A stretch of DNA of 64,000 bases from Nissabacter sp. SGAir0207 (GTDB taxonomy: Bacteria > Pseudomonadota > Gammaproteobacteria > Enterobacterales > Enterobacteriaceae). Made by a program: the position numbers and the translations under genes. Shown one piece after another: positions 48,867 through 58,803 of this stretch. The notes under the pieces are model-generated. The model ran no database searches and had not been told where the DNA came from. It worked only from the letters and a program-made list of their open reading frames with translations. Where the stretch lies: contig NZ_CP028041.1 of assembly GCF_005491205.1 (NCBI RefSeq), positions 1 through 64,000 of the forward strand. The letters are read 5' to 3'. Within the stretch, counting starts at the first letter, position 1, and each line of letters opens with the position of its first letter.

Positions 48867-49166
48867 ATGACAAACCAAGAGAAAACGATCACGCAAGAGG
48901 AGTGGGACAAGCTGTCGCCAGCACTGTACAAGCTGAGTCGCCAGACCGCAGATATTGTCAGGGCCGTATTGGTAGAAGGGCGTCAGGGCATTGATGTAGC
49001 AAAGGAGCACAACGTATCACGCCAGGCAGTTTATGCGGCGGTAGCCCGTGTCAGAAAGATTATGGAAGCAAAAGACCTTTCTGTTTTGGAGCCTGTATTG
49101 GTGTGGTTACCACCAGACAAGGCTAAAGAAGTCAGAGCCATGGCTAAGCAGTACGAGAAGAAGTGA
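48867..49166 (+). CDS. TrfB/KorA-like transcriptional regulator
   Basis: This protein has 99 residues. The helix-turn-helix (QGIDVAKEHNVSRQAVYAAV, then ARVRKIMEAK) at about 40-70, and the following hydrophobic VLVWLPPDKAKEVRAM dimerisation-like end, resemble KorA/TrfB of IncP plasmids and TrfB-related proteins. KorA is a global repressor of plasmid genes. Here it stands immediately before the repeated promoter-like modules of the leading region. GAGGA lies upstream of the ATG. Confidence 0.8.
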   Translation: MTNQEKTITQEEWDKLSPALYKLSRQTADIVRAVLVEGRQGIDVAKEHNVSRQAVYAAVARVRKIMEAKDLSVLEPVLVWLPPDKAKEVRAMAKQYEKK

Positions 49167-49250: not shown

Positions 49251-49713
49251 CTGGCCCCCTTCGGCTCCTGACCGGCAGGCCGGTCAGTCGTCAAGCCCCA
49301 CTGCGCTAACCGGCAAGCCGGTAAGCTCCGCCGAACCCCTGCGGGTTTCGGGCCTGCCGGCTAGGGTCTGATGGCAACCCCCAGGTCAACCCCGTGCAGC
49401 TGGCTTGCGCCAGCGCGTTCACTGGCCATGCAGGCATGGCCGCTAAGGCCCGGCCCGGCGTTGCCGTTCCGGGGTGTCTGCACGTTGTGTGTCCGGTGGA
49501 CTCCGTCTCACTGTGGCCCCTCGCCCCGCTGAAATCTGCCCCAACCGCGGCCCGCGTCAACCGTCCCGTCTGCACCCGTTCGCACTCGCGTTGCTCGCTT
49601 GCGCTGCGGCTTTGCCGTGCCCGTTGACCCGTGCCTTATCCGGCCGGGGCTGTTTTCGCGGTTGCGGCGAGGTTCCAAGTGAGACATCCATCCACCTACA
49701 GGAGAACACCAAC
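49251..49713 (+). repeat. Leading-region hairpin/leader module 1 (candidate single-strand promoter)
   Basis: This is the reference copy of a sequence found five times between 49 and 56 kb. Hairpins: TGACCGGC/GCCGGTCA (49269-49286, 2-base loop), ACCGGC/GCCGGT (49309-49322) and AACCC/GGGTT (49334-49347). GGCCTGCCGG (49351-49360) can instead pair with CCGGCAGGCC (49272-49281), so alternative folds exist. About 350 bases of conserved GC-rich DNA follow, up to the ATG at 49714. Similar structured repeats (Frpo of F, ssi of ColIb-P9) act as promoters on the incoming single strand. Here that role is inferred. Confidence 0.75.
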
Positions 49714-50046
49714 ATGCAGACACACAACGTCAACGTCAACACCGCGACGAAGGAATCCAGTGAGACGGGGTTAACCCCCACGGGCTTTCCCATGCAGCGT
49801 ATGCAGGACATCTACTACGTGATCCCCACTGGGGAGATGAGTGTGGAGCACTTTCTGGCGCTCTATACCACCGTGGTGAAAAACGGTCAGGACACGCAAT
49901 CCATCGAGGCGCTGGACGTGCCGGGGTGTCAGCGTCTGACGCTCATGAGCGATCACTGCCCGGACACGTACCAGCTGATGCTGAAAGAGGGTCGCCCCAT
50001 CGCTGCCTGCGATGAGCTGGCCATGACAACCTGGCGCATCGGCTGA
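49714..50046 (+). CDS. Leading-region hypothetical protein with the shared leader peptide, 110 aa
   Basis: It begins with the shared peptide MQTHNVNVNTATKESSETG, whose coding DNA is part of the repeated module. A unique domain follows (FPMQRMQDIYYVIPTGEMSV, then EHFLALYTTVVKNGQDTQSI). I do not recognise that domain. It is acidic, which is common among anti-restriction and other DNA-mimic proteins, but this is only suggestive. AGGAG precedes the ATG. It is first of four tightly packed genes. Confidence 0.7.
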   Translation: MQTHNVNVNTATKESSETGLTPTGFPMQRMQDIYYVIPTGEMSVEHFLALYTTVVKNGQDTQSIEALDVPGCQRLTLMSDHCPDTYQLMLKEGRPIAACDELAMTTWRIG

Positions 50047-50056
50047 GGACACCATC

Positions 50057-50482
50057 ATGAAAACCTACCATCTGACATCGTTGTTTGATCGCCTGTGCCA
50101 CCAGCTTCACCAGCCTGGCCTGGCGCCAGAGCAGGGCGAGGCCCTGTATCGCAAAATCCTGCGGTGGCAGGAGATCCGCGCCTGCTATCAGGAGGACGTG
50201 GGAACCGACAGGCTCAACCCCCAGGCGCGCCTGATGAAGTACCTGCTGATCGCCCGGAGCTGTGAGAACCGGCTGGAGTGGTGCCGGCTGGATGATGCCG
50301 TCATTGAGGCGCTGGTTGAGATCAACGAGAACACTTACTACGTCGTGCGGTTCCATTGGGGCAGTGGGGGCGTGACGGCCTGCCGGTATTGTTTCAACGG
50401 CACGGGCTTTGTGTGCGGCAAACGGATAGAGGGACTGGCAACGGTGCTACGCCGCGTGAAATGGGAGGTGCGGCCATGCTGA
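50057..50482 (+). CDS. Leading-region hypothetical protein, 141 aa
   Basis: I do not recognise it. It is soluble, with a helical amino half (HLTSLFDRLCHQLHQPGLAP) and a strand-rich carboxyl half (TYYVVRFHWGSGGVTACRYC). It starts 10 bases after the previous gene and overlaps the next by 7 bases, so the four genes form one operon under module 1. Confidence 0.65.
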   Translation: MKTYHLTSLFDRLCHQLHQPGLAPEQGEALYRKILRWQEIRACYQEDVGTDRLNPQARLMKYLLIARSCENRLEWCRLDDAVIEALVEINENTYYVVRFHWGSGGVTACRYCFNGTGFVCGKRIEGLATVLRRVKWEVRPC

Positions 50483-50796
50483 GCACAATTCCTCTGGCTT
50501 CACACGAGGACATCGCGGAAATAGGCCAGACCCTGACGCTTCTGGCAGGGCAACCCACCAGCAATGCCCAACGCCGGGCACTGGCTGCACAGGCACTGCG
50601 GGCATTTGTGCACGCTGCGGACACACATGATGAGCCGGTTGAGAGCAACATCCAGGATCTGATGATTGACCTGCTGCATTTGGTAAACCACCTGGGCCTG
50701 CGTCTGGATGACCCCACCCGCGCTGAACGGCTGCTGAGCGCGTCAGGGCTGCTTTTTGAGCTGGAAGTCAACGATGAGGAGAAAAAACATGGATAA
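50476..50796 (+). CDS. Leading-region hypothetical protein, 106 aa
   Basis: A small, helical, acidic protein (ASHEDIAEIGQTLTLLAGQP, then LMIDLLHLVNHLGLRL, ending ELEVNDEEKKHG). No family recognised. The ATG at 50476 has GGGAGG upstream and overlaps both neighbours by 7-8 bases. A longer in-frame start at 50356 would lie wholly inside the previous gene. Confidence 0.65.
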   Translation: MLSTIPLASHEDIAEIGQTLTLLAGQPTSNAQRRALAAQALRAFVHAADTHDEPVESNIQDLMIDLLHLVNHLGLRLDDPTRAERLLSASGLLFELEVNDEEKKHG

Positions 50797-51274
50797 AGCG
50801 ACGTTTAAGCAGAGCCTGGTACTGATCACGCTCGATAACGATGAACAGGGGTTGTTCCTGAACGGGACATTCATCACCTGCACAGAAGAAATGCAACTGC
50901 CTGATCTTGGTATGGTGGCCGAGCAGATAAGCAAAGCCCTCACCAAGCCATGTGTGAACCTTCACGCCCCGCGGCCAGACAATGAGGAGTGGGGCTGGCA
51001 CGATGTGGAGGACATGTTGACCAGCGGCCGGGCAGTGGTCACCATTATCGTCGCCCGGCAACGAGACAGGCTGGCCATCCATTTCTGTTCACACCGCCGG
51101 CTATGCGGGGCGGACAATGACCTGTGGTTCCCGTTGAGTGAGGCGCAGCCGTTATTTGAGCAGGTCGAACACATCCTGTGCCTGCATGGGGTGGCACATA
51201 ACGTGATACGGGTGGAGCCGCTGGGACAGGGGGAGGAAAATACGGATTACAGGGTGGTGTATAACCTGCGGTAA
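50789..51274 (+). CDS. Leading-region hypothetical protein, 161 aa
   Basis: Last gene of the module 1 operon. It is acidic and soluble (SLVLITLDNDEQGLFLNGTF, then RPDNEEWGWHDVEDMLTSGR), with a mixed strand/helix pattern. No family recognised. AGGAG precedes the ATG, which overlaps the previous stop by 8 bases. A perfect hairpin follows the gene. Confidence 0.65.
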   Translation: MDKATFKQSLVLITLDNDEQGLFLNGTFITCTEEMQLPDLGMVAEQISKALTKPCVNLHAPRPDNEEWGWHDVEDMLTSGRAVVTIIVARQRDRLAIHFCSHRRLCGADNDLWFPLSEAQPLFEQVEHILCLHGVAHNVIRVEPLGQGEENTDYRVVYNLR

Positions 51275-51280
51275 GAGAAA

Positions 51281-51302
51281 ACCGGCAAGCAGGCTTGCCG
51301 GT
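51281..51302 (+). terminator. Perfect hairpin after the four-gene operon
   Basis: ACCGGCAAGC, loop AG, GCTTGCCGGT: a 10-bp stem 7 bases after the stop at 51274. No T run follows. The stem is related in sequence to the ACCGGC hairpins of the modules. Confidence 0.55.
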
Positions 51303-51482
51303 GCTCCCGCCCCTGCACTGTGCGACGAGTCGGGGCAACAGAGACACACACTGACCGGAGTCAACGATGCCCCGTTATCATGCCACCCGTGGCGTGGCAG
51401 GTAAAGGGGCCATGTGTCCGGGGAGGGCCTCCTGGTCGATAAAGCATAGGGGGTGATACCTGAGGGCAGATTGACCCACCAG

Positions 51483-51977
51483 CCGCCAGGGGCGGCCAGC
51501 CGTGCCTGCGGCACGACTGCGCTAGCGGCATGCGTCTGGGGCCACGGTGATGACGCCCATTGGGCCTATCCTGCCCGTCTGAGCCTATCTGCCGGCCTCG
51601 CCTTTCGTCGCCATGACCTGGGCAGTTTACCGCCCCATACGTCCCGGCCGCCGGGGGCGGTCAGCCGCGCCTGCGGCACGACTGCGCTAGCGGCACGCGT
51701 CTGCGGCCACGGTGATGACGCTTATTGGGCCTATCCTGCCCGTCTGAGCCTATCTGCCTGCCTCGCCTTTCGTCGCCATGACCTGGGCAATTTACCGCTC
51801 CATGCGTCCCGTCCGCCGGGGGCGGTCAGCCGCGCCTGCGGCACGACTGCGCTAGCGGCACGCGTCTGCGGCCACGGTGATGACGCCCATTGGGCATACC
51901 CTGCCCGTCTGAGCCTATCTGCCTGCATCGCCTTTCGTGCCCATGACCTGGCCTGCTTACCGCCCCATACGCCCGTT
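51483..51977. repeat. 165-bp tandem repeat, three copies
   Basis: Units start at 51483, 51648 and 51813, each with CCGCC, GGGGCGGTCAGCCG and GACTGCGCTAGCGGC-type blocks. The period is exactly 165 bases. It leaves an open frame across all three, but the region lacks a ribosome site and normal protein composition. The rest of the gap 51303-52069 has no gene. The block ACTGCGCTA is shared with the modules. Confidence 0.85.
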
Positions 51978-52069
51978 GCAGGGCCTGTGTTGCCCACCGT
52001 GGCGGGATGCTGTCATTGGGTCTGGCTGGGCAGGGGGTGCTCCTCGGCGGCTGTTGGGGTGACCATCTC

Positions 52070-52557
52070 AGGTCAACGGCCCACCCCCAAAAGGCATGGC
52101 CCCCTTCGGCGCCTGACCGGCAGGCCGGCCAGTCGTCAGCCCCACTGCGCTAACCGGCTGTGCCGGTAAGCTCCGCCGAACCCCTGCGGGTTTCGGGCCT
52201 GCCGGCTAGGGTCTGATGGCAAACGGCAAGGCTCAACCCCGTGCAGCTGGCTTGCGCCAGCGCGTTCACTGGCCATGCAGGCATGGCCGCTGATGACCGG
52301 AACGGCGTTGCCGTTCCGGGGTGCCTGCATGTTGTGCCCTCAGGGGGTGTCTGTCCCTCCGGTGCCTCGCCCCGCTGAAATCTGCCCCAACCGCGGCCCG
52401 CATCAACCGTCCCGTCTGCACCCGTTCGCACTCGCGTTGCTCGCTTGCGCTGCGGCTTTGCCGTGCCGGTTGACCCGTGCCTTATCCGGTCGGGGCATAT
52501 TCGCGGTTGCGGCGAGGAACTCGGAGAGACAGACATCAACCCACGGAGGATACCAAC
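52070..52557 (+). repeat. Leading-region hairpin/leader module 2
   Basis: It has the same hairpin cassette (about 52097-52225) with variants: GCCGGCCAGT after the first stem and a GGCTGTGCC loop in the second. The leader of about 330 bases runs to the ATG at 52558. It diverges from module 1 in the stretch around 52335-52370 and just before the ATG. The upstream edge (AGGTCAACGGCCCACCCCCA) is shared with modules 3 and 4. Confidence 0.75.
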
Positions 52558-53115
52558 ATGCAGGCACAGAACGTCAACGTCAAAACCGCAGCGAAAAATC
52601 TAAAGAGACAGGGGGAAACCCCCACGTCAACACCCGCTTTCGCCCGTCATATTGGAGGCAGTATGCAAGACATGATCCCCAGCTATCACAATGCCAAAGA
52701 GCGCATCACGTGCTACACCGAGTTGGTGAAAATCACCGCCATTGAAGGCCCGGAGATTTTTCCGGGCACGAAGGCGCTGGCCCATAAGGTGACGGGCGAG
52801 CGGCTGACGCGTGACGGTGAGCCAACAGGGCACCTCCTGACGTTCCTCGCCCCGCTGGGCAGGGGGGTGGAAGGGGGGCGATTTCTTAGCCCGTGCCGCT
52901 ATTACGATCATGAGCCGACCGACGTGTTCATCAACGATGTGCTGGAAGTCATCCTCGACGAGGTGACCAATGACGCCACCGGCTGCACCGAGTTCGATCT
53001 GGTTGGCTCTTGTTTTGCCATGAAGTATTTCTCCGATCCCGAGATACGCAATGATCGCCTCTGGCCTGAGTGCTACTTGAACCCGCCCTCACAGGAGGAG
53101 GACGCCTTCTTCTGA
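52558..53115 (+). CDS. Leading-region hypothetical protein with a variant leader peptide, 185 aa
   Basis: The amino end MQAQNVNVKTAAKNLKRQG is a diverged form of the shared leader. The main domain (MIPSYHNAKERITCYTELVK, then HEPTDVFINDVLEVILDEVT) is unrecognised and ends in an acidic tail (SQEEDAFF). CGGAGG precedes the ATG. It stands alone between modules 2 and 3. Confidence 0.7.
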   Translation: MQAQNVNVKTAAKNLKRQGETPTSTPAFARHIGGSMQDMIPSYHNAKERITCYTELVKITAIEGPEIFPGTKALAHKVTGERLTRDGEPTGHLLTFLAPLGRGVEGGRFLSPCRYYDHEPTDVFINDVLEVILDEVTNDATGCTEFDLVGSCFAMKYFSDPEIRNDRLWPECYLNPPSQEEDAFF

Positions 53116-53331
53116 CTAACGCGGCGGCAGGCTTCCCCTGCCGCTGTTAACCGGTGCGCGGCCGGCGGCCGGGTGCGCGCTGCCAGCCCCTCACGGCAGG
53201 GCCACCCGGCAAAAGAAAGGGAGCGGCTACGCCGCTCTCTTTCGCCTGCCCCGTGTGCCTTTTTACCGTAGCGGAAGGCGATGCGGCGCTCTGGAGCGGT
53301 GGCCGGGGGAGGGGGTTCTCTGTCAGGTCAA
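53116..53331. other. Hairpin-rich spacer
   Basis: No gene seen. GCGGCAG/CTGCCGC (53122-53143) may end the upstream transcript. GAAAGGGAGCGGC with GCCGCTCTCTTTC (about 53216-53244) forms a long near-perfect stem with a 3-base loop. Confidence 0.5.
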
Positions 53332-53513
53332 GGTCTGGCAGGTCAACGGCCCACCCCCAAAGGGCATGGCCCCCTTCGGCGCCTGACCGGCAGGCCGGCC
53401 AGTCGTCAGCCCCACTGCGCTAACCGGCTGTGCCGGTAAGCTCCGCCGAACCCCTGCGGGTTTCGGGCCTGCCGGCTAGGGTCTGATGGCGAACGGCAAG
53501 GCTCAACCGCCAC
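53332..53513 (+). repeat. Leading-region hairpin module 3 (short form)
   Basis: The hairpin cassette alone, ending at GCAAGGCTCAACC. It lacks the roughly 370-base leader and the leader-peptide start found in the other copies. A membrane-protein gene follows at 53590. Confidence 0.75.
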
Positions 53514-53589
53514 GCGCGACTTCCTGGCTTCGCCAGGCGCGCAAAGGCCGGGGACGCTACACTTAGCTCAGCCATTAACAGGAGGTGTG

Positions 53590-53847
53590 ATGAACGTTAA
53601 GACGCTCTATGCCAACAACAGGATCGCCTTTCCAGTGGGGATTGTGCTGGCCGTGCTGGGCCACCTGTTTCTGTATACCACCCATGCCATGGCACTGATG
53701 TATGTGCCGTGGGTCTGCTGCCTGATTGCCATGCTGTTCCACTACGGTGATCCCAAGCCGCTGATGGTGAAAAGCGGCCTGCGGGCCATGGTCACCGCCC
53801 TGCTGGCTCTGGTCGTGTATATCACTTACGTGCTTGCTACAAGGTAA
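53590..53847 (+). CDS. Leading-region membrane protein, 85 aa
   Basis: A hydrophobic protein with about three membrane segments (near 12-30, 34-50 and 62-82). No family recognised. AGGAGG lies just upstream of the ATG at 53590; a GTG one codon earlier is also possible. It is preceded by the short module 3 and does not carry the shared leader peptide. Confidence 0.65.
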   Translation: MNVKTLYANNRIAFPVGIVLAVLGHLFLYTTHAMALMYVPWVCCLIAMLFHYGDPKPLMVKSGLRAMVTALLALVVYITYVLATR

Positions 53848-53982
53848 GCATGCCCATGGCCCTGACAGGCGTGCCCGGCGCGCCTGCTGTTTCCTGCCCA
53901 TTGATTGCCCATGCTGTGTTGCGTGCCCCGTGTGATCCCTGTCCGGGCTGATGCCTGCTTGCCGGGTCGTCGTCGTGTCTGC

Positions 53983-54481
53983 TCAGGTCAACCGCCTGAA
54001 CGGCCACCCCCAAAGGGCATGGCCCCCTTCGGCGCCTGACCGGCAGGCCGGCCAGTCGTCAGCCCCACTGCGCTAACCGGCAAGCCGGTAAGCTCCGCCG
54101 AACCCCTGCGGGTTTCGGGCCTGTCGGCTAGGGTCTGATGGCGAACGGCAAGGCTCAACCCCGTGCAGCTGGCTTGCGCCAGCGCGTTCACTGGCCATGC
54201 AGGCATGGCCGCTAAGGCCCGGCCCGGCGTTGCCGTTCCGGGGTGTCTGCACGTTGTGTGTCCGGTGGACTCCGTCTCACTGTGGCCCCTCGCCCCGCTG
54301 AAATCTGCCCCAACCGCGGCCCGCGTCAACCGTCCCGTCTGCACCCGTTCGCACTCGCGTTGCTCGCTTGCGCTGCGGCTTTGCCGTGCCGGTTGACCCG
54401 TGCCTTAACCGGTCGGGGCATATTCGCGGTTGCGGCGAGGTTCCAAGTGAGACATCCATCCACCTACAGGAGAACACCAAC
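53983..54481 (+). repeat. Leading-region hairpin/leader module 4
   Basis: A full copy, nearly identical to module 1 in both the hairpin cassette (about 54025-54140) and the leader. It ends at the ATG at 54482. High identity over about 500 bases makes it a site for recombination with modules 1 and 5. Confidence 0.78.
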
Positions 54482-54571
54482 ATGCAGACACACAACGTCA
54501 ACGTCAACACCGCGACGAAGGAATCCAGTGAGACGGGGGGCAAACCCAGTGGCGCTGGCCGCCAAGGCTGA
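54482..54571 (+). CDS. Orphan leader peptide frame, 29 aa
   Basis: MQTHNVNVNTATKESSETG and ten more residues, then a stop. The shared leader start is present, with the same AGGAG site, but no protein domain is attached. It is either a truncated gene or a true leader peptide controlling the membrane-protein gene 120 bases downstream. Confidence 0.5.
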   Translation: MQTHNVNVNTATKESSETGGKPSGAGRQG

Positions 54572-54692
54572 TTGCACGCGCCATGCGCATTGTTTGAAAT
54601 TCATCCGGCGGCATAGTGTAAAGCAGGCCGCCGGGATATACTGATAGCAGGGATACAGACAGGCTGTGTCCCTGCCCGAAAAGGGTAAACCA

Positions 54693-54920
54693 ATGTCGGT
54701 CACTGACATGAATGAACTGAACATCGCCAAAATCAACGCGGAAATTGCCAAGCAGATGGCAGAAACCAGCAAGCTGATGGCAGAAACGAAAAAGCTCCAT
54801 GCCGAGGCCGTTAAATATAACCGTGAAACTTTCTGGTATCCGCTGGCAATTTCCAGTGGCATCATCGGTGCGGTTGTGACGGTAACTACGCTGATCTTTA
54901 AACTCTTGGGCGTCTTATGA
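54693..54920 (+). CDS. Leading-region small membrane-anchored coiled-coil protein, 75 aa
   Basis: A helical, heptad-like amino part (ELNIAKINAEIAKQMAETSK, then LMAETKKLHAEAVKYN) precedes one membrane segment (PLAISSGIIGAVVTVTTLIF). AAGGG lies 7 bases before the ATG at 54693. No family recognised; the layout is like small phage or plasmid membrane effectors. Confidence 0.6.
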   Translation: MSVTDMNELNIAKINAEIAKQMAETSKLMAETKKLHAEAVKYNRETFWYPLAISSGIIGAVVTVTTLIFKLLGVL

Positions 54921-54926
54921 TGCCGG

Positions 54927-54946
54927 GGGAGGGGGCGCCCCCTCCC
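54927..54946. terminator. Perfect GC palindrome
   Basis: GGGAGGGGGC followed directly by GCCCCCTCCC and then TTAT, 6 bases after the stop at 54920. It is probably a terminator. The next 260 bases (54947-55207) hold no gene I can support. Confidence 0.6.
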
Positions 54947-55207
54947 TTATCACCGCACATCTGACCACCCTGTGCGCCGCCGCCCTCCGGTCTGTGCATG
55001 GCTGTAAGCCCGCCTAAAACACGGGCAGCCCTGCGGGCCGGGAAAAGCCGGTGCTGACGCACCGGCCTTCTCCCTTCGCCTGCGCTGATCTCCTCCTGGC
55101 TTCCTGTGCCTGCTGCTTCTCCTCCTGAGGGAATGCCCCTGACTGTGATGGTGCATCTGCCGGCGTGTTCTCCTGCGGCGGGATCGCCACTGTTCTCTTT
55201 ACGGCAA

Positions 55208-55686
55208 CAGCAACAGCCACCCCCTGGCCCCCTTCGGCTCCTGACCGGCAGGCCGGCCAGTCGTCAAGCCCCACTCCGCTAACCGGCAAGCCGGTAAGCT
55301 CCGCCGAACCCCTGCGGGTTTCGGGCCTGCCGGCTAGGGTCTGATGGCAACTGCCAGGTCAACCCCGTGCAGCTGGCTTGCGCCAGCGCGTTCACTGGCC
55401 ATGCAGGCATGGCCGCTGAGGCCCGGCCCGGCGTTGCCGTTCCGGAGTGTCTGCATGTTGTGTGTCCGGTGGACTCCGTCTCACTGTGGCCCCTCGCCCC
55501 GCTGAAATCTGCCCCAGCCGCGGCCCGCATCAACCGTCCCGTCTGCACCCGTTCGCACTCGCGTTGCTCGCTTACGCTGCGGCTTTGCCGTGCCGGTTGA
55601 CCCGTGCCTTATCCGGCCGGGGCTGTTTTCGCGGTTGCGGCGAGGTTCCAAGTGAGACATCCATCCACCTACAGGAGAACACCAAC
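55208..55686 (+). repeat. Leading-region hairpin/leader module 5
   Basis: A full copy, closest to module 1 (it shares the variant CTTCGGCTCCTGACC and the TCGTCAAGCC spacing). Differences include GGCCGGCCAGT in the first stem and ACTCCGC for ACTGCGC. It ends at the ATG at 55687. Confidence 0.78.
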
Positions 55687-56310
55687 ATGCAGACACACAA
55701 CGTCAACGTCAAAACCGCGACGAAGGAATCCAGTGAGACAGGGGGCAAACCCCGTTTTTATCCTTCTGCTTATGAGCCGGGAGTTTCGCTGCGTGAAGAT
55801 GTCTATCAGACGCAATTTTACCTTGAGGTAGAGGGGCAATATACCTTACCGGAAGATGATTCCGAGCCGGGTTCAGGCAAACGGTACTGCTATGGCGAAT
55901 GGGAGTTTGGTGCGTTTACCAGCCTGCGCGACGCCGTGCGCAAGATTGAAGCGATCTATGCCCAATGGAAAATCAGCGGGTACAAAACCGATCTGTGCCA
56001 GCTGGTTTACGGTGTTCCAGATGGTCACTCTGGACGCTTTGCGCCTGAATTCGTGCGCATCCTTGACCGCCATAACGATCTGGCGCTGGGCGCGGTGATT
56101 GATCAGGAGGTGCAATGGGTTACCCCAGTGGCGACGCTGCGCGATTTTGTCGAGGTGATGAATAAAGTCGACTCTTTAAATTACGGCTGGCCTGAAACAC
56201 GTCAGGAAAAAATACTTGGGCTTTCTCTAATCCATTCGCGTTACTGGAAACATGAAGAAGTCAACGCCCTTATTAACCGCACGGCATCACCCGCCTCTAA
56301 CGTTTTCTAA
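55687..56310 (+). CDS. Leading-region hypothetical protein with the shared leader peptide, 207 aa
   Basis: The leader MQTHNVNVKTATKESSETG is fused to an unrecognised domain of about 185 residues (VSLREDVYQTQFYLEVEGQY, then GEWEFGAFTSLRDAVRKIEA). The protein is soluble and acidic. Base composition drops just after the leader, so the body was probably joined to a repeated start. It is followed 16 bases later by the DUF932 gene in the same operon. Confidence 0.7.
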   Translation: MQTHNVNVKTATKESSETGGKPRFYPSAYEPGVSLREDVYQTQFYLEVEGQYTLPEDDSEPGSGKRYCYGEWEFGAFTSLRDAVRKIEAIYAQWKISGYKTDLCQLVYGVPDGHSGRFAPEFVRILDRHNDLALGAVIDQEVQWVTPVATLRDFVEVMNKVDSLNYGWPETRQEKILGLSLIHSRYWKHEEVNALINRTASPASNVF

Positions 56311-56326: not shown

Positions 56327-57115
56327 ATGGCAACTTTAGCTTCCCGTTTTGGTTATGTTAATCAGATCCGTAAAGACCGTCCGTTAACGGATGATGAATT
56401 GCGCTATGCCGTGCCAAGTATTTTTTCAGAAGAAAAACATGATTCACGCAGTGAACGCTATACCTATATTCCTACCATCACCTTGTTGGACAATTTGCGA
56501 AAAGAAGGTTTCCAACCTTTTTATGCCTGCCAGACCCGCGTGCGGGATGCTGAGAAACGCGGGCACACAAAACATATGCTGCGTCTGCGTCGGGAGAACA
56601 ATATCGTGGGTACTGAGGTGCCGGAAATTATTCTGCTCAACAGCCATGACGGGTCGAGCAGCTACCAGATGATCCCAGGCATGTTTCGTTTTGTCTGCTG
56701 TAACGGCATGGTATGCGGTACGACATTGGGCGAAGTTCGCATGCCCCATAAAGGTGATATTGTCAGCCAGGTTATTGAAGGTGCCTATGAGGTGCTGGGT
56801 ATTTTCGATAAGGTCGAAGCCGGCGCCGAACAGATGAAATCCATTAGCCTGAATAAGTATGAGCAGGAAGCTTTTGCCGGTGCCGCATTAGAATATCGTT
56901 ATGAAGGCAGTGAGGTTATTCCGGTCACTGAAACCGATGTGTTAAGGCCGCGTCGCTGGCAGGATGATAAAAATGATTTGTGGACGACTTACCAGCGTGT
57001 GCAGGAAAACATGATAAAGGGTGGAATAAATGGGCGCAATGCGAAAGGCAAGCGAACCCGAACGCGAGCGATTAACGGCATCGATGGCGATATTAAACTT
57101 AACCGTGCCCTGTAG
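56327..57115 (+). CDS. DUF932-family leading-region protein
   Basis: This protein has 262 residues. The central part (FQPFYACQTRVRDAEKRGHT, then MIPGMFRFVCCNGMVCGTTL) marks DUF932, a family commonly carried in the leading regions of F-like and other conjugative plasmids (an ORF273-like gene of F). Its function is not established. AGGAG lies upstream of the ATG. It shares the module 5 operon, and a good terminator follows. Confidence 0.8.
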   Translation: MATLASRFGYVNQIRKDRPLTDDELRYAVPSIFSEEKHDSRSERYTYIPTITLLDNLRKEGFQPFYACQTRVRDAEKRGHTKHMLRLRRENNIVGTEVPEIILLNSHDGSSSYQMIPGMFRFVCCNGMVCGTTLGEVRMPHKGDIVSQVIEGAYEVLGIFDKVEAGAEQMKSISLNKYEQEAFAGAALEYRYEGSEVIPVTETDVLRPRRWQDDKNDLWTTYQRVQENMIKGGINGRNAKGKRTRTRAINGIDGDIKLNRAL

Positions 57116-58084: not shown

Positions 58085-58125
58085 TGGTACGTCATGGGCA
58101 CACCCCACGCAAGACAGTGTCTTGC
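58085..58125 (-). other. oriT nic region
   Basis: The - strand reads GCGTGGGGTGTG (+ coordinates 58099-58110), identical to the core of the F nic site recognised by TraI. Next to it is a perfect inverted repeat GCAAGACA-G-TGTCTTGC (58109-58125), in the place of the F repeat GCAAAAAC/GTTTTTGC. The nicked strand is the - strand, so DNA to the left (57.5 kb and below) should enter the recipient first and the tra genes last. Confidence 0.88.
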
Positions 58126-58189
58126 AAGATTTTACTTTAAAATCAGTTTGTTAATGTTCTTGCATTGTTTCTTTTTGAGTTTTGGTTAA

Positions 58190-58355
58190 AAAACTATACT
58201 CGCTATGTACTCTACATATACTCTTTTACGAGTATAGCTATACTCTTCTTATACTTACAATTTTAAATCAATTACATATGTAGAGTATACTCTAGAGTGT
58301 ACTCTATTTTTTGATTATTTTTTGTTTAGAGTGTACTCTAGAGTGTACTCGTGCT
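58190..58355. promoter_or_regulatory. TraM-binding-type repeats of oriT
   Basis: AT-rich DNA with palindromic copies GAGTATACTC (58283-58292) and GAGTGTACTC (58295-58304, 58329-58338 and 58341-58350), in two pairs with 12-base spacing. Weaker copies lie at 58210-58250. Their place between nic and traM matches the sbm sites where TraM binds and represses its own promoter. Confidence 0.78.
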
Positions 58356-58404
58356 ATACCTATTCTAAATAATACAATGTCTACCCTATAAATAAGAGGA
58401 AACA

Positions 58405-58803
58405 ATGCCAAGAGTACAAGCTTTTCTAAACAATGATGTTATCGAAGAAGTTAATTCAATTGTTGAAAGCCGCCGTGCTGAAGGTGCTTCTAACCAAGAT
58501 GCAAGCTTCTCTAATACAGTATCTATGTTGGTAGAGCTTGGGTTGAGGGTCTATCGTCTTCAAAGGGAAAATAGAACCGATCCCTTTAATCAAACTGAGT
58601 TCAATAAGCTTCTCCTCGATAACGCTGTTCGTGCAAGGATAACAAGTCAAAAGCTATTGGGGGTCTTGTCTTTGCTTCCAGAGCTTACAAATAACGAAAG
58701 TTTTTCTTTGGCTCGGGTAATTGAAAAAATCAACGATGAGGCTGATGAGATCAACAGTAAAATGTTTCCGGCACTTGATGACGAAGAGGATAGCAATGAA
58801 TAG
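58405..58803 (+). CDS. traM: TraM, relaxosome accessory and autoregulator
   Basis: TraM binds oriT and contacts the TraD tail, signalling for transfer. It has 132 residues (F: 127). The amino ribbon-helix-helix (MPRVQAFLNNDVIEEVNSIV) is followed by the highly conserved SMLVELGLRVYRLQ and FNQTEFNKLLLDNAV, and an acidic end (DDEEDSNE). AGAGG precedes the ATG. The repeats just upstream suggest self-repression. Confidence 0.94.
   Translation: MPRVQAFLNNDVIEEVNSIVESRRAEGASNQDASFSNTVSMLVELGLRVYRLQRENRTDPFNQTEFNKLLLDNAVRARITSQKLLGVLSLLPELTNNESFSLARVIEKINDEADEINSKMFPALDDEEDSNE

Follow-up and report, generated by a model that had tools for sequence, protein, structure and literature searches.

Repeat units in the leading region

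The genes of the leading region are those that a plasmid can express earliest on arrival in a new host, and they often act against host defences. The window, a 64,000-nt stretch of Nissabacter sp. SGAir0207 (contig NZ_CP028041.1, positions 1-64,000, forward strand; assembly GCF_005491205.1), carries a nic-region 14-mer on the - strand at 58099-58112 that is identical to F over 14 bases, which assigns a series of repeat units at 49.2-55.8 kb, upstream of leading genes, to the leading region. A nic consensus pattern gave six matches, not above chance. The genes downstream of the units lie on the + strand and the nic motif on the - strand, as in F; if the moving strand is the one that moves in F, the transferred (-) strand would be the template for the downstream + genes. 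An earlier, sequence-only reading of this DNA had proposed the same orientation of nic and the incoming strand as template, and our results agree with it on both points.

Each unit begins with module A, a structured element of about 140 nt present in five copies, all on the + strand, that is in the sense of the leading genes: 49251-49377, 52096-52231, 53366-53501, 54019-54153 and 55225-55356 (copies 1-5; boundaries are those of the profile). All five are supported by sequence match and profile, copies 1, 2 and 4 also by covariation, and copy 5 has a blastn match to a ColIb-P9 unit. The copies are 92-100% identical to copy 1, with no other matches in the 5.03-Mb genome, in line with the five cassettes of one orientation reported previously; the starts given there as 53350 and 54025 are off by 16 and 6 bases, respectively. 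It had also been noted that four copies keep a further 350 bases or so, and four of the five, all except that at 53366, indeed continue, extending to 49798, 52637, 54558 and 55768. The continuation comprises module B, an imperfect palindrome of about 290 nt that ends within the first codons of the next gene. Palindrome and covariation define its copies, as hairpins of the transferred (-) strand, at 49456-49744 (ribosome-binding site (RBS) and ATG in the right arm), 52306-52579 (helices exchanged relative to copies 1, 4 and 5), 54228-54503 and 55432-55708, the last in the place of F Frpo1.

The first gene of unit 1 (49714-50046, +) begins MQTHNVNVNTA, with its start codon within the stem, and matched no Pfam family above cut-off. 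That of unit 2 (52558-53115, +) begins MQAQNVNVKTA and found no plasmid relative by tblastn, the open reading frame of unit 4 (54482-54571, +; 29 codons) reaches barely beyond the common N-terminal peptide, and the first gene of unit 5 (55687-56310, +), beginning MQTHNVNVKTA, has distant relatives in three Serratia plasmid records. It is followed by a DUF932 gene (56327-57115, +; Pfam E 2.8e-51), second in its unit as behind F Frpo1 and 71.5% identical to F DNA over 488 columns. Otherwise unrelated leading proteins have one N-terminal peptide in common, which the position of the start codon inside the stem would explain.

Between 48.8 and 57.3 kb, a scan for ordinary promoters returned four sites against 2.7 +/- 1.4 expected, none within any unit, and 11 terminator-like sites were found against 8.3 +/- 3.0 expected. 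A defence-family search with ten proteins gave a single weak match (E 0.058). Scanning 47.5-58.5 kb against Rfam yielded no family above cut-off and no match of any kind in the units; the sole match, to a microRNA family, fell outside them at 58280-58353 and did not reach its cut-off (E 0.25).

Folding of the transferred strand

A blind palindrome scan of the 64-kb window returned eight palindromes scoring at least 45, and the top four were the B modules (77.6-91.6; next, 57.0). The transferred strand of modules A and B of copy 1 together folded with z -6.7 and the B part of the four copies with z -5.9 to -10.1, whereas module A alone reached z -1.5 to -2.3 against shuffles in its five copies. 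Across the family, the transferred-strand fold beat all 50 shuffles each in 27 of 27 members. Folding the - strand of each copy had been suggested beforehand as a check; the outcome is strong in module B and mild in the cassette itself. Copy 3 of module A (53366-53501) is followed by no palindrome scoring at least 45, the promoter hairpin is absent, and the 92 nt downstream of it fold with z -1.6.

Covariation among homologous modules, another check named in advance, was present in both parts. Module A showed 185 double-change cells compared to 66.3 +/- 6.9 after shuffling (46 copies, those of 53 distinct A copies that alignment A3 took) and module B 76 compared to 31.6 +/- 4.0, dropping to 12 or fewer when slid; the number of pair types was not above shuffles in either module. 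With the invariant pair excluded, the pair table of module A holds 16 G.U cells on the + strand versus 18 A.C cells. Module A is a separate multi-branch element, conserved in sequence and structure, and the strong fold and single-strand-promoter signature reside in module B, not A. The sequence-only reading had cast the cassette, that is module A, as the promoter-like part. This we reject, because its own fold is weak and some units lack it: L035, L084, L085, L087 and L088 gave no hit with the A profile at E 1. One guess is that module A serves as an insulator or a loading platform.

The mismatches between the palindrome arms bear on the question of which strand folds. Among 76 palindromes scoring at least 55, 67 matched the family and were kept, and eight of these were then removed (duplicate places or identical cores, two neighbours of real units). 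In the resulting 59 copies, mismatches favoured G.T on the transferred strand by 359 to 135, with a background of 2546 to 2483, and 32 representatives showed the same bias (203:75); before cleaning, the ratios were 415:160 in 67 and 207:83 in 32. Part of this reflects the purine bias of the arms, as same-base mismatches alone predict about 1.56:1 where 2.66:1 was observed. The G.T excess suggests that selection for folding has acted on the transferred strand.

Hairpin tip, candidate promoter and related systems

The apical motif of module B (copy 1, 49568-49626, +, by motif comparison) recurs at hairpin centres of Xanthomonas, Pseudomonas, Aeromonas, Yersinia and Variovorax plasmids, and a motif search found it absent from the ColIb stretch. 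In a class-wide sample of 369 genomes, the exact tip pattern occurred in two, including that of the window itself; a literature search for its letters found nothing, and a Variovorax unit had no match among phages. Beside the tip, the transferred-strand arm of copy 1 holds a candidate -35/-10 pair (TTGACG, 16, CAGATT; 49533-49560, -; p 0.01 versus shuffled arms). Of 13 units that have the apical motif, 11 showed their best sigma-70 match 29-38 nt from the tip with a spacer of 16-17; of 17 units lacking the motif, two did. Window arms gave p 0.01-0.10 and 30 arms combined p 0.011 in the promoter-match test, in which the known members from F and ColIb were not conspicuous.

Kinship with the F Frpo and ColIb-P9 units, as proposed in the sequence-only reading, is supported. 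A profile built from the window copies matched F Frpo1 over the length of module B at a modest E of 6.5e-4, and blastn of module B against the F and ColIb units detected no similarity. Like Frpo1 and Frpo2 of F, the units lie in the leading region, have the transferred strand as template and form a large transferred-strand hairpin, with a profile match over the B length and a mismatch bias of equal sign; unit 5 at 55.2 kb shares its neighbours with Frpo1. In contrast, the F tip is A+T rich, the arms have diverged beyond a blastn match, module A has no counterpart in F at E 1, and the start codon lies behind the stem in F and inside it here; IncFII(K) units also start outside the stem, as in F. 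Module B thus looks, from its sequence, to be of the kind known from plasmid F, but with a different tip and the start codon inside the hairpin. ColIb-P9 carries three repeated units (ssi) and resembles the window in having several units before leading genes, hairpins of comparable size and a module A common to one unit by blastn and two by profile; it differs in the missing apical motif and in B being unmatched by blastn. Several units on one plasmid are not unusual: among the palindromes kept, F has two, ColIb-P9 three and a Serratia plasmid five.

A further parallel is EGeRS1 of the Bacillus plasmid pLS20, where five structured repeats are reported directly 5' of the ribosome sites of different establishment operons, which in native orientation block read-through expression (PMC8708921). 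Module B does not share the strand arrangement of EGeRS1: the transferred strand is the template here and, per those authors, the non-template strand in pLS20.

Proposed single-strand promoters and their implications

We consider it likely that the window carries four promoters of the Frpo/ssi kind, formed by hairpins of the transferred strand; each follows a separate element A, and they would serve different leading-region genes. The previously proposed network of five promoters is thereby reduced to the four copies with a B hairpin; since the copy at 53.37 kb has module A only, it is not a candidate. As the - strand enters the recipient, module B would fold into a hairpin of about 290 nt, as covariation and strand-biased mismatches suggest, and RNA polymerase would find in its stem a double-stranded -35 close to the tip and a -10 at an internal loop. 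RNA would start in the stem and continue into the gene, which has its start codon within the stem. By analogy with F, second-strand synthesis would then restore an ordinary duplex site and end the activity of the hairpin. In read-through RNA made afterwards, the ribosome site would be folded into the stem, an effect that in the calculations went beyond shuffled controls in two of the four window copies.

The same RNA may also prime second-strand synthesis, as F Frpo is reported to do in vitro (PMC7690428). That the hairpins are mainly priming sites (ssi) for an RNA polymerase primer, with gene expression a by-product, nevertheless appears unlikely: folding of the transferred strand is predicted by either role, but one unit per gene or operon and a start codon within the stem suit expression better, and more than one priming site per plasmid would presumably be superfluous.

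It is very unlikely that the palindrome acts purely at the RNA level, hiding the ribosome site in read-through transcripts with no single-strand promoter involved. For 16 units, the computed cost of opening the RBS was 9.4-29.9 kcal/mol in read-through RNA versus 2.0-5.5 in RNA initiated in the right arm, and the pLS20 block on read-through mentioned above fits. However, copies 1 and 4 fell inside the shuffled range, the mismatch bias favours the transferred strand rather than the RNA, F and IncFII(K) units start outside the stem, and the promoter would be left unaccounted for, given a promoter scan at background. A role of the copies as mere passive repeats, or as recombination sites that shuffle leading-region genes, is highly improbable. 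The same unit before unrelated genes and the proposal in PMC3817090 that Frpo repeats mediated a 9.7-kb leading-region exchange speak for it, but compensatory change, present in both modules, is not expected of passive repeats.

Building on the reading as hairpin promoters, we tentatively suggest a second, broad branch of transferred-strand promoters that includes module B, is marked by a conserved tip and lies beyond blastn reach of F Frpo. In beta- and gammaproteobacteria it would extend across plasmids of the MPF_F, MPF_T and MPF_I types. The stem-enclosed start codon could then form a two-key switch, in which hairpin-started RNA is translated and read-through RNA is not, and the genes would therefore be active solely during the single-stranded phase of the plasmid; the common N-terminal peptide would be a by-product of DNA folding.

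The mismatch strand bias, the tip motif and the start codon within the stem are the new points here. The first provides a way to ask, from sequence alone, on which of the two strands selection for palindrome folding acts, and the covariation-supported fold combined with the tip motif would find such promoters where similarity to F fails. The start codon within the stem, in turn, offers a testable reason why these genes would fall silent once the plasmid is double-stranded.

Repeat units and their predicted structure

Module A, an element of about 140 nt, occurs five times in the window, from 49.25 to 55.36 kb and in a single orientation, matching the five cassettes of the sequence-only reading; a search of the whole genome returned only these five matches, all inside the window. 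In four copies, it is continued by module B, an imperfect palindrome of about 290 nt (copy 1, 49456..49744; copy 2, 52306..52579; copy 4, 54228..54503; copy 5, 55432..55708), which extends into the opening codons of the following gene. When palindromes were scanned blind across all 64 kb of the window, these modules took the first four places (91.6, 90.6, 79.6 and 77.6; fifth, 57.0). At 53366-53501, neither the profile nor the blind palindrome scan of the window found a module B behind module A, and B without A was also found. A 165-bp repeat in three tandem copies (90-93% alike to the first) lies between units 1 and 2 (51479-51973). Immediately upstream of unit 1 is a KorA/TrfB-like repressor gene (48867-49163; Pfam E 5.6e-13), and a TrfB-related gene likewise immediately precedes a B unit in the comparison stretch L088.

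Across 46 aligned copies of module A, 17 of 29 predicted pairs carried double changes, amounting to 185 double-change cells versus 66.3 +/- 6.9 in shuffles and at most 23 with slid partners; pair types were not above shuffles (29 versus 27.2; 113/500). The predicted layout comprises one hairpin adjoining a short helix around three more hairpins, with fixed linkers. For module B, seven units (four from the window, three from Serratia) were aligned in transferred-strand sense, and 28 of 87 predicted pairs had changed on both sides. Double-change cells numbered 76, a level reached by 0 of 500 shuffles (31.6 +/- 4.0), and sliding the partners gave no more than 12; the count is favoured because the structure was predicted from the same alignment. 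The number of pair types was not above shuffles (45 versus 43.8; 209/500). Folded as DNA, the transferred strand went beyond all 50 of its shuffles in each of 27 family members (z -4.5 to -11.3).

We aligned the palindrome of each family copy strand-neutrally and scored arm transitions as G.T on either strand. Among 59 cleaned copies, 359 transition mismatches were G.T on the transferred strand and 135 on the other, with 52 copies leaning one way, four the opposite way and three tied; 32 representatives gave 203 versus 75, and background counts were 2546 versus 2483 (704 windows, 17 stretches). P-values for this bias overstate it, because the copies are related. The remaining arm mismatches lean likewise (C.T 566 versus A.G 192, read on the + strand), and on the transferred strand these remaining mismatches are therefore mostly purine-purine. 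Purine-purine mismatches are the more stable ones in DNA. The purine lean may, however, reflect a neutral arm bias, which would count against selection on strand folding. Same-base mismatches set a baseline of 1.56 to 1 versus the observed 2.66 to 1 in the cleaned copies, and of 1.44 versus 2.71 in the representatives; base composition of palindromes and flanks predicts 0.9 to 1.15 to 1.

Kinship with Frpo and position beside nic

According to published work, Frpo is a 328-bp element with priming in vitro (PMC7690428), early recipient expression of downstream genes requires F Frpo1 and Frpo2 (PMC9849209), Frpo homologues number 13,089 over 6,006 elements (PMC11541004), BLAST finds Frpo on 74% of PsiB plasmids (PMC12826799) and IncI leading regions contain Frpo repeats (PMC3817090).

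A profile built from the four full window copies, searched against the window and ten other stretches, matched F Frpo1 at columns 235-549 (E 6.5e-4) and a ColIb-P9 unit in the A part (E 9e-6), with all matches outside the window on the + strand. Hit loci were oriented by the fetching match, the sense of which is set by construction, unlike that of further matches and the genes behind. Module A of copy 5 matched a ColIb unit by blastn (E 3.8e-7, the window alone as subject); module B showed no blastn similarity in the same F/ColIb comparison. Copy 1, taken as a full unit, matched 4900 of 72,556 plasmid records at E 1e-5, starting in module A in 58/60 among the matches listed, and the B part alone matched 368.

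A nic-region 14-mer lies on the - strand at 58099-58112, and F and four further fetched plasmids carry it unchanged, likewise on the - strand; the exact 14-mer was absent from the other 84 of 89 loci, some F-type plasmids included. By analogy with F, the - strand, which is the template of the window's + genes, would be the transferred one. The surroundings of F Frpo1 recur at unit 5, where the hairpin is accompanied by a first gene, a gene of the DUF932 family (Pfam E 2.8e-51), a transglycosylase gene on the - strand (71.9% identical to F DNA across 313 columns), the nic 14-mer and, at the position of traM, an ORF. The fifth-best window palindrome (58114-58476) is an A+T-rich repeat set flanked by the 14-mer on one side and this ORF on the other.

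Tip motif, candidate promoter and embedded start codon

Searching with a profile of the apical motif of the B hairpin (E up to 1) produced 29 hits spread over 17 stretches, seven of these stretches having been chosen for fetching by a match to the tip block itself. All hits were on the + strand and 27 lay at most 11.5 nt from a palindrome centre, as did 65 of 555 random 380-nt control segments; the remaining pair together form a single motif that is split in the fetched stretch L037. Centred tips came from the window and from Serratia, Enterobacter, Citrobacter, Variovorax, Pseudomonas, Aeromonas, Yersinia and Xanthomonas plasmids (typed MPF_F, MPF_T or MPF_I, or untyped), and the profile had no hit in the stretches from F, IncFII(K) and ColIb. 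A 281-nt Variovorax unit matched 357 plasmid records (119 named Xanthomonas, 71 Pseudomonas), with at least 80% coverage in 48. On a Pseudomonas aeruginosa plasmid (L084, 2638-16336), three tip-motif units and three genes annotated as anti-CRISPR share one region. Longer tip hairpins with paired changes (TTCACGG/CCGTGAA, TTTACGG/CCGTAAA) occur in tip-motif units of L034 (1410, 5363, 7097), L030 (12159, 14429) and L032 (6048, 7790), some preceding genes with a DNA methylase or antirestriction annotation.

The best sigma-70 match in the transferred-strand arm of the window copies, TTGACG or TTGATG, spacer 16 and CAGATT, starts 31-34 nt from the tip (p 0.01, 0.10, 0.02, 0.10) and represents a candidate promoter, the predicted -10 of which overlaps an internal loop within the stem. 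Over 30 arms, the best match fell at 29-38 nt with a spacer of 16-17 in 11/13 tip-motif units versus 2/17 without the motif; the combined p was 0.011, versus 0.995 for the opposite arm, and the known F and ColIb cases were unremarkable. Terminator-like sites lie in the right arm of B in copies 1 (49633-49650) and 5 (55606-55623), the whole scan being near background.

The palindrome contains the start codon in 16 units examined (window; Serratia, Enterobacter, Citrobacter and Kosakonia plasmids), and the encoded proteins have a common N-terminus (for example, MQTHNVNVNTA or MHTRNVNVKTA, versus MSTRNIHVNTA in F YgeA). Predicted opening of the ribosome site in these units costs 9.4-29.9 kcal/mol in read-through RNA versus 2.0-5.5 in RNA from the right arm, and 7.0-17.2 versus 2.6-4.9 kcal/mol in four further start-inside units. 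No gap was seen in the four units of F and IncFII(K), in which the start lies outside (4.4-6.8 versus 4.5-6.1); one Aeromonas unit, with its start 24 nt outside, did (14.8 versus 5.0). With the left arm shuffled, the cost averaged about 6 to 7 in window copies. A lock on the ribosome site in read-through RNA is thus plausible yet not uniform, because copies 2 and 5 exceed every one of 40 left-arm shuffles and copies 1 and 4 do not.

Among the literature matches listed, neither this tip motif nor a start codon inside the hairpin was recognized. The element is of a known kind, and the present variant differs in its tip, in the divergence of its arms, in having the start codon embedded and in its companion element; it occurs four times in full and once as module A alone.
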